From a virus, in IMG/VR virus record IMGVR_UViG_3300031227_000548, positions 1 to 20,406 of that record: a stretch of 20,406 bases of DNA; one strand, given 5' to 3'. The notes beneath the pieces were generated by a model, which did not search any database, was not told where the DNA came from, and saw only the letters and a program-made list of their open reading frames with translations. Each line of letters starts with the position of its first letter. Within the stretch, counting starts at the first letter, position 1. Below, in pieces: positions 9,787 through 18,229 of this stretch. The translations under genes were made by a program, and so were the position numbers.

Positions 9787-9914
9787 GTATTGCCTTTGGG
9801 TGTAACTCCCCGACGCCGGGACTTTTAGTTATATTATTTGTAGCCCCTCACTCAGGCTCTTTTTAAGTATCACCCATTACCGGGGAGCGCTACATATTGT
9901 GTGATTAAAGGCCC
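9787..9914 (-). promoter_or_regulatory. Structured leader ahead of terS (possible attenuator or packaging site)
   Basis: GTAGC/GCTAC (9840-9844 with 9889-9893) can close a stem. CTCCCCG/CGGGGAG (9806-9812 with 9881-9887) is a perfect alternative pairing over a longer range. CCCG-GCGT-CGGG (9808-9820) forms a local hairpin that competes with it. The three cannot all form together, so switching is possible. In many cos-type phages the packaging site lies next to terS, so this gap is also a candidate cos/pac region. No gene is visible in it. Confidence 0.4.
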
Positions 9915-11078: not shown

Positions 11079-11302
11079 GATTTGTCCTCCTCCCTCCATG
11101 TCAATACCCCTTTTATATATCGCGCCCTCCGGGGAATGTTGGGATATAATACCCTCAGATACTCCCATAAACGCTCCCCTGATTCAAAGCTCATTCGTTG
11201 CGCTACCGCTATACCATAGTCCGCGATTGTAATGTCACGATGTAGAGCATCAGCTTCTTTTCGTTCAGCCGCTTTCAGTTTGATCGTCTTTTGCTTTGCC
11301 AT
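11069..11302 (-). CDS. Uncharacterised protein, 77 aa
   Basis: ATG 11302 shares its A with the stop of the gene upstream (TAATG), and GGGAG lies just ahead. The product has a lysine-rich helical start (MAKQKTIKLKAAERKEADAL), a helical middle (IADYGIAVAQRMSFESGERL) and a basic end (PNIPRRARYIKGVLTW). It looks soluble and helical. Nothing in it identifies a function. Confidence 0.55.
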   Translation of the reverse strand: MAKQKTIKLKAAERKEADALHRDITIADYGIAVAQRMSFESGERLWEYLRVLYPNIPRRARYIKGVLTWREEDKSCG

Positions 11303-11502
11303 TATTCTCCCTCCGGGCCATGCTCTAAATCATTAGCAAATTGAGCAACAGCAGCGGCCAGATTAAATGCTGATTTCAGCAAGTAGCCTGTGTATTCGTG
11401 CAATGCTATTTCCACGATTCTTTGTGACGCCAATCTTAAAATAATCTCAGCCTCCCCATCCTCAGCTATTGCCTTAGTTATCTTATCGAGTTGTTCTTGC
11501 AT
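11302..11502 (-). CDS. Uncharacterised helical protein, 66 aa
   Basis: ATG 11502 follows the VRR-NUC stop by one base, with GGGGGA at the right distance. The product is almost entirely helical (MQEQLDKITKAIAEDGEAEI, then LKSAFNLAAAVAQFANDLEH) with an acidic end. Its hydrophobic stretch is too short and mixed for a membrane span. The position in a coupled run of small genes supports expression. Function unknown. Confidence 0.55.
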   Translation of the reverse strand: MQEQLDKITKAIAEDGEAEIILRLASQRIVEIALHEYTGYLLKSAFNLAAAVAQFANDLEHGPEGE

Positions 11503-11503
11503 A

Positions 11504-11869
11504 TTATCCCCCTTTCATGATCTGTATAAAACGTTTATAACTTTTCACTATATGGACGCTATGCCCCAAAAACATAAGTTGTCGGTGTAGTTGCTGTTGT
11601 TCCGATCGCAACTTCCCCCCAGCCGCCTTCAATTCGATTAGCTCAACCCGGCCATTATCCATGAAAATGGTTAAATCGGGGAACCCTGCCTTGTTTTTCT
11701 TCTTTGACCAATCGTGAAAGCATATCCAACCGCAGGCATCACAATATTTGATACATTTGGCTTGTAGGACTTTTTCCGGCCCGGCATCAGGCGTGTCGTC
11801 AACCTTCACCCAGTCCCCACGCCGGGCATTAAACTCATCTAATTCGGCTTGGCTCCAATTTAAGCCCAT
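11504..11869 (-). CDS. VRR-NUC family nuclease, 121 aa
   Basis: A compact PD-(D/E)XK-type nuclease. The key pattern is visible: an early Glu (PEKVLQAKCIKYC), then NKAGFPDLTIFMDNG with the catalytic Asp in FPDL, and RVELIELKAAGGKLRSEQQQ with the E-x-K motif. The protein ends HSVHIVKSYKRF, as usual for stand-alone phage VRR-NUC proteins of about this size. Such enzymes are thought to cut branched or structured DNA in replication or recombination. ATG 11869 lies inside the end of the third HNH gene (10-base overlap), with AAAGGGG upstream. Confidence 0.88.
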   Translation of the reverse strand: MGLNWSQAELDEFNARRGDWVKVDDTPDAGPEKVLQAKCIKYCDACGWICFHDWSKKKNKAGFPDLTIFMDNGRVELIELKAAGGKLRSEQQQLHRQLMFLGHSVHIVKSYKRFIQIMKGG

Positions 11870-12675
11870 AAATAATCCCCTTTTGCTATAAAATACTTCA
11901 AAGTTTCCTCTTCTGTAAGCCCTTGCTTAGTTTTTCGACCTTGCCATATCTGCCAAGTGACTTTTAATCTTCTTAACCACTCCATTTTAATCCTTCTTAT
12001 GCCATTAAATTCAATCCAAACATTCGCTCTTGTATTACCGTTTTGCTCTTTCTGCGTAGCCCATTTACAATTATCAGGCTCATAGTTTCCGTTATTATCA
12101 ATTCGTTCAATCGTCAATCCTTTAGGACATCGACCCATATCTTTACGGAAATTCTCATAACTATGCAACCATCTATCGCAAATCACAATCCCTCGACCTC
12201 CATAATCATTGAAGGCGTGACTATTCTTATTCAAACACCTAATTTTCATGTGATGCCACCTTGAATATTCAGCGCTATTGCTTTCTCCATGTGTAGTGCA
12301 AGCATCCATCTTGTAACATCCACAACTCACAGTGTTTCCTGTTTTCAAACTGTTACCATTAACAACCACTGTTTTTCCACAATCACAGCTACATTCCCAT
12401 CGTGGATGTCCTTTGGTAATATTTGGCAATATCCTTTTGATAACAGTAAGTCTCCCAAATTTTTTCCCTCTTAAATCTTTAAAGGATTGATCTATCATGT
12501 AACATCCACAACTTACCGTGCGCCCGGATCTTAAACTGCCACCACTTACAACTCGGGTTACTCCACAATCACACACACACTGCCATTGAATGTTTCCATA
12601 TTTATCGTTTTCACTTCGCTCAATAACAGTCCATCGCCCAAATCGTTTACCCGTCATATCAATAAATTTACTCAT
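11860..12675 (-). CDS. HNH homing-type endonuclease with duplicated Cys-rich N-terminal domain, 271 aa
   Basis: Residues 7-60 and 68-121 are two copies of one domain: an (M/L)xGK(R/K)FGR(W/L)TVI start, a CxCDCG core and a final VSCGCY, likely zinc-binding. The nuclease part follows: CLNKNSHAFNDYGGRGIVIC, then DRWLHSYENFRKDMG, TIERIDNNGNYEPDNCKWAT and QKEQNGN. This is the HNH variant common in free-standing phage endonucleases. The C-terminal 50 residues are basic and helical, probably DNA-binding. I chose ATG 12675, with GGAGGTG 8 bases upstream. The frame is open to 12828, but that part covers the structured leader. Its end overlaps the VRR-NUC start. Confidence 0.87.
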   Translation of the reverse strand: MSKFIDMTGKRFGRWTVIERSENDKYGNIQWQCVCDCGVTRVVSGGSLRSGRTVSCGCYMIDQSFKDLRGKKFGRLTVIKRILPNITKGHPRWECSCDCGKTVVVNGNSLKTGNTVSCGCYKMDACTTHGESNSAEYSRWHHMKIRCLNKNSHAFNDYGGRGIVICDRWLHSYENFRKDMGRCPKGLTIERIDNNGNYEPDNCKWATQKEQNGNTRANVWIEFNGIRRIKMEWLRRLKVTWQIWQGRKTKQGLTEEETLKYFIAKGDYLWA

Positions 12676-12689
12676 AACAAAACACCTCC

Positions 12690-12765
12690 AAAAAAGAAAA
12701 CCCTGAGAGTAGTTGAAGCCGCAAAGGGCTTTTCCCGACCTCACGGCCTGGGAACTCTCAGGGTT
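12690..12765 (-). ncRNA. Three-way-junction leader RNA with U-tract ahead of the third HNH gene
   Basis: P1 is 12 perfect pairs: AACCCTGAGAGT (from 12765) with ACTCTCAGGGTT (to 12699). Inside, P2 is TCCC-A-GGCC-GTGA-GGTC-GGGA (12753 to 12733), capped by a GNRA-type GUGA tetraloop. P3 is AAGCC/GGCTT (12731-12727 with 12720-12716). P1 is followed at once by a T-rich run (12698-12690), as in an intrinsic terminator. The ribosome binding site comes next. It may be a transcription attenuator or a regulatory RNA controlling the endonuclease. It matches no riboswitch class that I can identify by eye. Confidence 0.65.
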
Positions 12766-12799
12766 AATTTCTGGATACTTTGCGTTTTCAACTATAATC

Positions 12800-12828
12800 A
12801 TATTATATTTTTCCTTTTGGAATGTCAA
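12800..12828 (-). promoter_or_regulatory. Sigma70-type promoter for the third HNH gene, with a palindrome in the spacer
   Basis: TTGACA (12828-12823) and TAATAT (12805-12800) are 17 bases apart; a perfect TATAAT (12807-12802) is also present at 15 bases. The spacer holds TTCC-AAAA-GGAA (12822-12811), a 12-base inverted repeat that could be an operator. The start site would be near 12793, about 118 bases ahead of the HNH start codon. Confidence 0.7.
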
Positions 12829-12834
12829 GGGTTA

Positions 12835-13557
12835 TTAAATCCCATCAAGAGCTTTCACAGCCGCTTCAACAGTGTATTGCAAAGCGGCGCCTACATCGTT
12901 GATTTCATTGTCGCGGATTGCCTCTAATATCTCTCGCAGGGCCTTTATCCGGGTCTCGGCCACATCCAGCATGCAATATGGACAGGTCTCATCCTCAATG
13001 TCTGCTATCCAGTTATCGCAATGTTTGCATTGGATTGTTTTAGGCTTTTTAATCTTCTCAGGTTTACCCTTCATCCCCTTCACAACTTCTTCTAATTCCT
13101 GGACGGAGATTTTAGCTCCATCAGCAGCATTCAGGATGTCGTGAGCGCCAACATTTTCTAAACTGCGGACAGCCTCGTAATGAGAGAATCGCAGGTTTTT
13201 ATATACACGAGACTCTGGCAAGAACTTGTCCCGCACCTTCAGCCAGGTTTGTGCTCTGCTTTGAGAAATTATAGGTCTGCCAGCAGAATCCCACGGTATA
13301 TGGTCTGTCCACTCATATCCTGAATTCCTTAATTCAGCCCAAAAATCCGCCCAGTACCATTGCCGTCCTTTGTGGAACTTTGCCAAACCTTCACTAATAC
13401 GCTCTATTAAGTCCTCAGTTAGTCCAATATTAAACACCAATCTGTCTTCCTTGAATTCAACCTCTTTGATCTGTGACAATTCCCCGGTGTCGGGTACTAC
13501 CTGTGTCTCTTCTGTCATATCCCCTCTGCCTTCTTCATTGTGTGCTACTGTGCTCAT
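12835..13557 (-). CDS. Uncharacterised protein with a four-cysteine zinc motif, 240 aa
   Basis: ATG 13557 follows GGGGGGAG and overlaps the previous gene by 4 bases. The N-terminal part is acidic. Residues about 55-140 are helical with tryptophans (FHKGRQWYWADFWAELRNSG, then SRAQTWLKVRDKFLPESR), possibly a DNA-binding or replication-adaptor fold. Near residue 176 a CKHC...CPYC knuckle suggests a zinc ribbon. The C-terminus is helical and ends KALDGI. The position between HNH genes, SSB and VRR-NUC suggests a role in DNA metabolism, but I recognise no family. Confidence 0.65.
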   Translation of the reverse strand: MSTVAHNEEGRGDMTEETQVVPDTGELSQIKEVEFKEDRLVFNIGLTEDLIERISEGLAKFHKGRQWYWADFWAELRNSGYEWTDHIPWDSAGRPIISQSRAQTWLKVRDKFLPESRVYKNLRFSHYEAVRSLENVGAHDILNAADGAKISVQELEEVVKGMKGKPEKIKKPKTIQCKHCDNWIADIEDETCPYCMLDVAETRIKALREILEAIRDNEINDVGAALQYTVEAAVKALDGI

Positions 13558-16314: not shown

Positions 16315-17896
16315 GTTTAGCCTCTAAATGCTCTTGAATTAAGCGTTCAGAGTTTTCACTATCACCCTGATGGGCTTCAGTAGCCTTCTTTTTCTTATAG
16401 GACTTGGCTTTTTTAATCAGGATATGAGTAAGGATGTTTTTAATAGCACCCTCGGGTGTTATCGCAGGGACACCTTTCACGCGTTTATCGTTAGGCCATA
16501 CCCCAAAATAATCTTTGTAAGTGTGTGCAATCCATCCATTCTTATAACCTTTTTTCTCTGCGTGCCATACAAGCGCACCCATTACCAAGCGCTTGTCGAG
16601 CCAGTCCATATTTTTGTTAGTTACTTTTTTTTGCTTCAACTCTTGCAGGTCTGCGTCAACCGTTTCAATTTCCTTCCCGAAACTTTTACATTCTGTACCG
16701 CAATCCGGGCATATGTTAGACCCATAAAAGATTAAACCACACGCTCTACATTGAATGGACTTTTTTGTCACTTCACGTTGAGATTTAATCCATGCCTTTT
16801 TGTTCCCATCCAACGACCATTCAACTTCTTCTTCCAAAAAACCATGTCGTGGTATCAAGCCGGCATGATCAATTAAGATGCAGTCCTTTTTCCTTGGATA
16901 TGGTCGAAGCCCACGGCCTGCCATCTGAACAAAACGTCCATAGGACTTGGTTGGCTTTGCAAGCACCACCGCAGACGCCCATGGAAAATCTGCTCCTTCT
17001 GAGAAAACACCTACATTTGTTACTATCCTTGTATCCCCATTTTCAAACCGAGTGAGGACATCTTTCCTATCGTCAGTAGAGGTATGAGCGTCTACATGCT
17101 CAATACTAATCCCCTTGTTTGTAAAGACCTGTTCTATGTGTTTACTGTGCGCTACATTAGTTGCAAAAATAACAGTCTGCCGATCACCCCCAATACGAAG
17201 CCAATTATCAAGGATATCTCCCACCAACTTAGCCTTATCAACCCTTTCACCTACAACTTTTTGATTGTAATCCCCTGCAACTGTAGGGATGTTAGATAAA
17301 TCAGGGCTATGTTTAGCACCAAAATATCGGGCTGGGACTAAAAACCCTTGAGAAGTCAAATCGGCGATACTGCTACACGTTACAATATCCTCATAAACCT
17401 CACCTAACCCTCGCTGATCCCCGCGCATTGGCGTTGCAGTCAAGCCAATAATAATAGCCTGGTCTTGATATAGGTCTAAAATAGCCTTCCTGGTTGGGGC
17501 TATGGAAGAGTGGCATTCATCGTACACCACTATGTCAGCACTCTGAAACCATGGGTTATATTGACTTTCATCCAGTTTTAGCCGCCTCTCGTATGTCTGC
17601 ACGCTAATGATCTGGATAGGCCTATCAAGGTGACTTTCTTCACCTGCCATTATTAACCCAACGTCACTCCCCATGCCAAAATCAATAAACCTCTCTAATG
17701 CTTGGTAAGCTAATTGCCTGAAATGAACCAAAAAGATGGACTTATTGCCTTTCTCAAGTGCCTTGGATATTATACTCGCCGCAATAATGGTTTTACCTGC
17801 CCCACAGTTAGCTTGAATAATTATCCGCTTGTTCCCAAACCGGATCGAGTCTCTCGCGGCTTCAATTGTTTTAGTCTGATATTCTCTAAGTATCAC
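16304..17896 (-). CDS. RadD-like superfamily 2 DNA helicase, 530 aa
   Basis: An ATP-dependent DNA helicase. Motif I is ANCGAGKT (29-36), motif II DECH (126-129), motif III TATPMRG (153-159) and motif VI QMAGRGLRP (324-332). After the two RecA-like domains there is a four-cysteine zinc knuckle CRAC...CPDC (383-399), as in RadD/YejH-type helicases, then a lysine-rich tail. It probably opens DNA for replication or recombination together with the primase. The start is GTG 17896; its first bases overlap the stop of the AP2-remnant gene (GTGA), with GAGGT about 9 bases upstream. Confidence 0.9.
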   Translation of the reverse strand: MILREYQTKTIEAARDSIRFGNKRIIIQANCGAGKTIIAASIISKALEKGNKSIFLVHFRQLAYQALERFIDFGMGSDVGLIMAGEESHLDRPIQIISVQTYERRLKLDESQYNPWFQSADIVVYDECHSSIAPTRKAILDLYQDQAIIIGLTATPMRGDQRGLGEVYEDIVTCSSIADLTSQGFLVPARYFGAKHSPDLSNIPTVAGDYNQKVVGERVDKAKLVGDILDNWLRIGGDRQTVIFATNVAHSKHIEQVFTNKGISIEHVDAHTSTDDRKDVLTRFENGDTRIVTNVGVFSEGADFPWASAVVLAKPTKSYGRFVQMAGRGLRPYPRKKDCILIDHAGLIPRHGFLEEEVEWSLDGNKKAWIKSQREVTKKSIQCRACGLIFYGSNICPDCGTECKSFGKEIETVDADLQELKQKKVTNKNMDWLDKRLVMGALVWHAEKKGYKNGWIAHTYKDYFGVWPNDKRVKGVPAITPEGAIKNILTHILIKKAKSYKKKKATEAHQGDSENSERLIQEHLEAKHGH

Positions 17897-18102
17897 CAGT
17901 AGGTTACCTCACCCATCTTTCTCGCCTCTGTAGCCTCTTCAATCGTTTTAAAACAACCCAAGTGATAAGTTTTACCTCTCGAATGTATTTGAGAATAATA
18001 ACTATGTGTTTTTTTATCAAATTTTCCCTGTTTATCACGCCCGTGCTCACCTACTATTAACCACCTACCGAATCTTTTTCCCGTCATTTCTATTTTTTCC
18101 AT
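17893..18102 (-). CDS. Shortened homing-endonuclease relative: N-terminal motif joined to an AP2 domain, 69 aa
   Basis: The start is ATG 18102 (MEKIEMTGKRFGRWLIVGEH) with AAAGG upstream. MTGKRFGRW is the same N-terminal motif as in the third HNH protein. After residue 30 it goes directly to SYYSQIHSRGKTYHLGCFKT and IEEATEARKMGEVTYW, which matches the DNA-binding AP2 domain found at the C-terminus of HNH-AP2 endonucleases. The HNH nuclease core is missing, so this looks like an internal deletion product. It may still bind DNA. Its stop overlaps the helicase GTG, and its first 38 bases overlap the ribbon-helix-helix gene. Confidence 0.65.
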   Translation of the reverse strand: MEKIEMTGKRFGRWLIVGEHGRDKQGKFDKKTHSYYSQIHSRGKTYHLGCFKTIEEATEARKMGEVTYW

Positions 18103-18229
18103 CTTCCCTTTCCACCTTTTCAGCCAAGGATTCAATTACGATTTGCTTAAAAGTCTTCCCAGAGTTTATCGCAAGTATCTTAGCCGCCCTCTTTAATTCT
18201 TTTGGGATTTCTACATTAATTATTATCAT
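18065..18229 (-). CDS. Small ribbon-helix-helix DNA-binding protein, 54 aa
   Basis: The frame from ATG 18229 to TAG 18065 encodes MIIINVEIPKELKRAAKILA, then INSGKTFKQIVIESLAEKVE and a basic tail ending KKIR. A strand (INVEIP), a helix (KELKRAAKILAINS) and a second helix (TFKQIVIESLAEKVE) are the ribbon-helix-helix layout of Arc/CopG-type repressors. Its promoter lies so close that the transcript would begin at or near the ATG. It probably controls its own promoter or nearby early genes. It overlaps the AP2 remnant by 38 bases. Confidence 0.65.
   Translation of the reverse strand: MIIINVEIPKELKRAAKILAINSGKTFKQIVIESLAEKVEREDGKNRNDGKKIR

Follow-up and report, generated by a model that had tools for sequence, protein, structure and literature searches.

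The window analysed here, a phage contig of 20.4 kb from IMG/VR whose main genes are encoded on the minus strand, carries a leader element flanked by a 240-aa gene (12835-13557) and an HNH endonuclease gene. What kind of RNA is this leader, and how might it act on the gene behind it? A sequence-only reading had described a compact folded RNA that ends like a terminator and is set between promoter and start codon, and had suggested an attenuator that reads a ligand, a protein or the phage stage.

The leader and its locus

All parts named in that reading, a 12-bp P1, an 8-bp P2 with a GUGA loop, a 5-bp P3 and a T-rich run, are found on the minus strand where it had placed them (Table 1), and the sequence bears out the overall layout. 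P1 consists of 12 perfect pairs (12765-12754 with 12710-12699), and this stable stem is followed immediately by the U-tract, as in intrinsic terminators and attenuators. The transcript is predicted to start at ~12793, leaving ~27 nt of leader ahead of P1, and the HNH gene starts with ATG at 12675. The promoter is TTGACA-17-TAATAT at 12828-12800. Sigma-70-like matches in the window are no commoner than in shuffled sequence, and the call therefore depends on where the match lies and on its conservation in relatives, which carry TTGAC(A/T)-17/18-TAtnnT at the equivalent position.

Table 1. Features of the leader and its gene in the window.
Feature	Position	Strand	Basis or remark
Sigma-70-like promoter TTGACA-17-TAATAT	12800-12828	-	Position and conservation in relatives
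Leader 5' end AGUUGAA-AA-CGCAAAG (a' and b')	12778-12793	-	Complementary to P3 loop and junction
P1 5' strand AACCCUGAGAGU	12754-12765	-	Sequence, covariation alignment
P2 arm UCCC-A-GGCC[GUGA]GGUC-GGGA	12733-12753	-	8 pairs, one bulged A, GNRA loop
P3 arm AAGCC[CUUUGC]GGCUU	12716-12731	-	5 pairs; loop CUUUGC = b
Junction CAACU (preceding UU included = a)	12711-12715	-	CA[A/U]CU in L127 and L207 copy 1
P1 3' strand ACUCUCAGGGUU	12699-12710	-	Sequence, covariation alignment
Terminator-like U-tract UUCUUUUUU	12690-12698	-	Sequence; kept in place in most members
Shine-Dalgarno GGAGG, abuts U-tract	12685-12689	-	Sequence
HNH endonuclease gene	11860-12675	-	271 aa; PHROG 374 'HNH endonuclease', E 3e-90

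The HNH assignment of the gene is based on its PHROG match; a Pfam search of the 271-aa protein yielded no match. The protein has two N-terminal segments of the FGRW/FGRL type, and its gene is followed by a VRR-NUC-like gene. Since relatives of the window terminase include a Desulfofustis phage, the sequence suggests a host from Desulfobacterota; our host statements are based on this terminase similarity and on the assignment of the metagenome-assembled genome (MAG) L038.

Three further features of the window were seen. The HNH frame is open back across the whole leader (12828-11860, minus strand, 322 codons; NPESSQAVRSGKALCGFNYSQGFLFWRCFVMSK), as it also is in L127 and L212, and an extended HNH protein might be made from read-through transcripts. 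A short ORF at 17893-18135 (minus strand) has an FGRW-type segment and lacks the HNH part, and seems to be either a remnant of the HNH gene or a rearranged relative. Ahead of a 132-aa gene that lies upstream of the terminase, the intergenic region 9796-9906 (minus strand) shares 86% identity with L128 8051-8162, and in L128 a part of this region occurs as a tandem repeat. The region contains GC-rich hairpins, has no Rfam match, and may be a further structured element or a site connected with packaging.

Relatives and conservation of the structure

The viral contig L127, from a sister phage, keeps the orthologous HNH gene and the leader, while the preceding gene differs. Identity to the window is 78.9% over the leader and gene start and about 67% over the rest of the HNH gene and the next gene; hence the leader is conserved more strongly than the HNH gene in this pair. 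P1 pair 3, two P2 pairs and the P3 stem are altered in L127 with the structure retained. The otherwise unrelated phage L207 has only the promoter, leader and start codon in common with the window (70%, E 5e-10), and carries two leader copies, each ahead of a different gene. In the gene behind copy 1 (11291-11650), which has an FGRL-type segment, a TAG interrupts the frame early and the HNH part is missing, although promoter and leader are intact; copy 2 precedes a 31-aa ORF that heads another gene group.

As the sequence-only reading had proposed, we searched with covariance models, and these did find members in Desulfobacterota genomes. Model R2, built solely from the copies of the window, L127 and L207 (copies 1 and 2), found members in 11 of 395 sampled genomes from the phylum of a Desulfobacterales MAG (Desulfobacterota). 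Eleven good members were aligned to give model R3, which found members in 18 of 85 sampled genomes from the class of one of these members, again in Desulfobacterota. Applied to 299 genomes from one proteobacterial group, R3 gave only two short matches, and pattern searches yielded no convincing member in 399 genomes of that group or in 399 genomes of a Bacillota group; the genome sampling was partial throughout. No close DNA relatives were found in the phage and plasmid records searched. Several weaker R2 matches turned out on inspection to be plain hairpins, the inspected proteobacterial R3 match (L241) was a plain terminator hairpin, and L129, L130, L131 and L208 were dismissed as chance pattern matches.

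Folding of the core gives a minimum free energy (MFE) of -36.6 kcal/mol (z -5.3), and none of 200 shuffles is as stable. Since P2 and P3 are merged in the MFE drawing, the three-way junction was decided by sequence comparison. In the 11-member alignment, which was fitted to the covariance model and so leans toward it, 92% of cells pair and changes on both sides occur at 21 of 25 pairs, a result seen in 0 of 500 shuffles. In the four phage copies alone, six pairs are changed on both sides, and their covariation score is likewise reached by none of 500 shuffles. A strict junction descriptor, run over both strands of 832 kb, matched only the window, L127 and L207 copy 1. Because so many pairs change on both sides in comparison with the shuffles, the window element is a genuine, evolutionarily conserved structured RNA. 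The sequence-only reading had listed missing conservation of pairing among the observations that would speak against it; since relatives keep the pairing, that objection falls away.

The arrangement of GGAGG directly after the U-tract recurs in L127, L207, L212, L222, L225, L226 and L237. The U-tract is absent in a few members (L230), and in a few the SD is not adjacent; a possible further member, L034, scoring 27 bits, also lacks the U-tract. The abutting of U-tract and GGAGG in the window, L127 and L207 could be taken to mean that the leader boosts expression, with a stable structure protecting the message and a U-rich stretch before the SD favouring ribosome binding. We consider this very improbable, as the U-tract lies 0-2 nt past P1, like that of a terminator, and is present with a distant SD in L210, L215, L229 and L236.

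Kinship with C4 and c4-2 RNAs

An Rfam search, also proposed in the sequence-only reading, came back empty: the window copy has no match at gathering or at E 10. In particular, neither c4-2 (RF02944, clan CL00128; cut-off 41 bits) nor C4 antisense RNA (RF01695) is matched even at E 10, and the L127 and L207 copies have no c4-2 match at E 10 either. By contrast, L213, L220 and L221 (the last from a sensitive scan) match c4-2 exactly on the element, at 44.6-45.9 bits. Model R2 recovers L213 at 43.5 bits, and since it was built without L213, this ties the window element to sequences above the c4-2 cut-off. Like c4-2, it has a three-stem junction with a GNRA-type P2 loop, P3, and a 3' U-run; unlike in c4-2, P1 is one unbroken helix and an HNH gene lies downstream. 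Judged by these comparisons, the element in the window is related to c4-2 but divergent, and it lies outside Rfam's own c4-2 cut-off.

The C4/c4-2 antisense RNA clan is thus named as the best-fitting class, rather than a riboswitch, and nothing points to the small-molecule ligand that had been considered. No Rfam riboswitch of a known aptamer class matches the element, nor do the HNH-associated HEARO/OMEGA guide RNAs at the window. A hammerhead-like reading of the GAAA junction was rejected, the hammerhead core being absent.

Genes and motifs around the members

The element is not tied to HNH genes. HNH genes of two families lie downstream of it (window and L127; L212 by PHROG), but so do the 31-aa ORF of L207, a BRO-type antirepressor gene in L227, and many small phage-type ORFs of 50-130 aa. 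In L229 and L236 two related 400-aa proteins follow, integrase-like by eye only, and their first 110 aa have no family match. Conversely, the idea that all HNH relatives share one leader was rejected, as most HNH relatives abut or overlap the upstream gene. The HNH leaders of L002, L003, L005, L008, L020, L056, L102 and L007/L104/L119 have their own structures and no match to the models. Upstream of HNH in L007, L104 and L119 there is a distinct shared leader, a GC-rich hairpin followed by CAACC(U)..AGGU, which may mask the SD of these genes.

Several members have an SD and a start codon ahead of the junction. Of the frames through the junction, the one that begins with the first base of P1 is open in 24 members out of 32 and the others in 12-13, and therefore translation may run through the RNA in some leaders.

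Two motifs recur upstream of the element. CCGGGAGGCCAnCCGUnAnUGGCnUUUUU, conserved in L209, L211, L212, L213, L220, L221, L225, L227, L229, L231 and L237, is an SD and start codon heading a short leader ORF that runs through the junction; it can form CGGG/CCCG and GCCA/UGGC pairs, covarying in L209, L212 and L231. The other, CUCUAAACCAyAGgCaAUGACAACA, is found in L222, L224, L228, L232, L233, L234, L236 and L238, and part of it pairs with the P3 loop. In addition, int-alpA RNA (RF02996) is present at L222 1597-1666, directly behind the element, and at L233 2514-2582.

Complementarity of the 5' end to P3

A feature absent from the sequence-only reading is a two-part complementarity between the leader 5' end and the P3 loop with the junction. 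In the window, CUUUGCG-GC-UUCAACU (12726-12711) lies opposite the 5' end (12793-12778) with 7+7 bp; L207 copy 2 has 11+6 bp, and in L127 the pairing is also two-part with quite different letters. Among 31 members, the duplex energies of own pairs sum to -527 kcal/mol, versus -384 (sd 17) with leaders swapped, and permuted leaders equalled the own-pair energy in 0 of 5000 trials, a control that keeps composition and not relatedness. In L215 and L230 the pairing is unconvincing. The complementary 5' end precedes an SD only in members with a leader ORF. Complementarity of the element to the downstream region as an antisense target is not enriched (mean z -0.33). Judged by geometry, the 5' end-P3 helix and P1 would make an H-type pseudoknot with zero intervening bases, at the expense of P3. 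Because the first bases of the element pair with one of its own loops, the leader is probably a built-in brake on the gene behind.

The P3 loop sequence varies freely and tracks its 5' partner. This argues against a ligand- or protein-sensing attenuator, for which the compact junction and GNRA loop before a terminator-like end would speak; with no metabolic theme among the downstream genes and no riboswitch match, we give such a riboswitch-like device hardly any credence.

Another rival reading is an ordinary intrinsic terminator with an elaborate head. Leakage alone would then express the gene, and the 5' end pairing would play no regulatory part. The U-tract directly after P1 in most members is what such a terminator would have. 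An additional family copy found with R3 at L127 4883-4972 fits it too, having its own promoter and U8 and lacking both an SD and a nearby gene start; this copy is possibly a stand-alone small RNA. However, the junction arms, the GNRA loop and the 5'-end complementarity are conserved beyond the needs of a terminator, and a dedicated promoter and SD are retained beside the element, which makes this explanation unlikely.

The bipartite a/b complementarity, the c4-2 matches of relatives and the BRO-type antirepressor of L227 would also suit a classical C4-style antisense RNA acting in trans, mainly on other transcripts such as those of an incoming phage, and conferring immunity. Yet the complement of each RNA is its own 5' end, and the a'b' sequences differ between the two L207 copies. 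We regard this alternative as quite unlikely.

Proposed mechanism and known systems

Building on the observed structure, kinship and complementarity, we infer, with moderate confidence, a promoter-proximal leader of the C4/c4-2 type that would yield a terminated short RNA and a read-through mRNA, gated by the 5' end-P3 pairing. The promoter would mostly give an RNA of ~100 nt with its 3' end at the U-tract, and the HNH gene would be made only from read-through transcripts. Pairing of a'b' with the P3 loop and junction (b and a) would set terminator formation and the openness of the ribosome site. It could occur within one molecule (cis), where it would make a pseudoknot that stacks on P1, or between molecules (trans), with another copy of the short RNA supplying the partner strand. 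A potentially harmful DNA-cutting gene would thereby be held at a low and adjustable level. The missing c4 and c4-2 matches of the window copy at E 10 count against the C4/c4-2 reading, as does the position of the complement 5' of the RNA. So do the members with unconvincing pairing (L215, L230) and the few that have no U-tract (L230) or no SD next to it.

C4 RNAs serve phages in keeping genes repressed; C4 of phages P1 and P7 acts via short a/b complementarities, and in P1 its target lies downstream of the C4 RNA. The window element resembles it as a leader RNA that lies ahead of the gene it would control and may act through short a/b complementarities, and differs from it in having its own 5' end as the complement, HNH in place of icd-ant, and no match to the Rfam model. 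C4 of P1 is a phage RNA cotranscribed ahead of the gene that it controls (PMC8201110). The IsrK RNA of Gifsy-1 is a promoter-driven small RNA with an intrinsic terminator; read-through expresses an antirepressor operon, and IsrK acts in trans on its read-through mRNA (PMC4825925). By layout, i.e. its own promoter, a terminated short RNA, a read-through mRNA and RNA-RNA control, all partly predicted for the window, IsrK may be viewed as the nearest worked case for the proposed mechanism, albeit with an antirepressor operon and a downstream complement rather than an HNH gene and a complement at the 5' end. In leaders of T4-type homing endonucleases, a simple hairpin masks the SD. There, as we would expect in the window, RNA structure limits the expression of a phage DNA endonuclease, whereas the window SD sits after a conserved junction and a U-tract.

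More tentatively, and as a possibility rather than a probability, the element may represent a separate RNA family, as yet undescribed, that belongs to phages and prophages of Desulfobacterota. A 5' end-P3 pseudoknot stacked coaxially on P1 would then serve as a self-contained antisense switch ahead of numerous phage genes, among them those for homing endonucleases.

These results extend the C4 antisense clan, whose known role is the control of antirepressors, to HNH leaders and to mobile elements of Desulfobacterota, in which many copies go undetected by Rfam. The coordinated changes in the two pairing partners, 5' end and P3, provide a precise, testable prediction of how such RNAs may work, and bear on how phages restrain their DNA-cutting genes.
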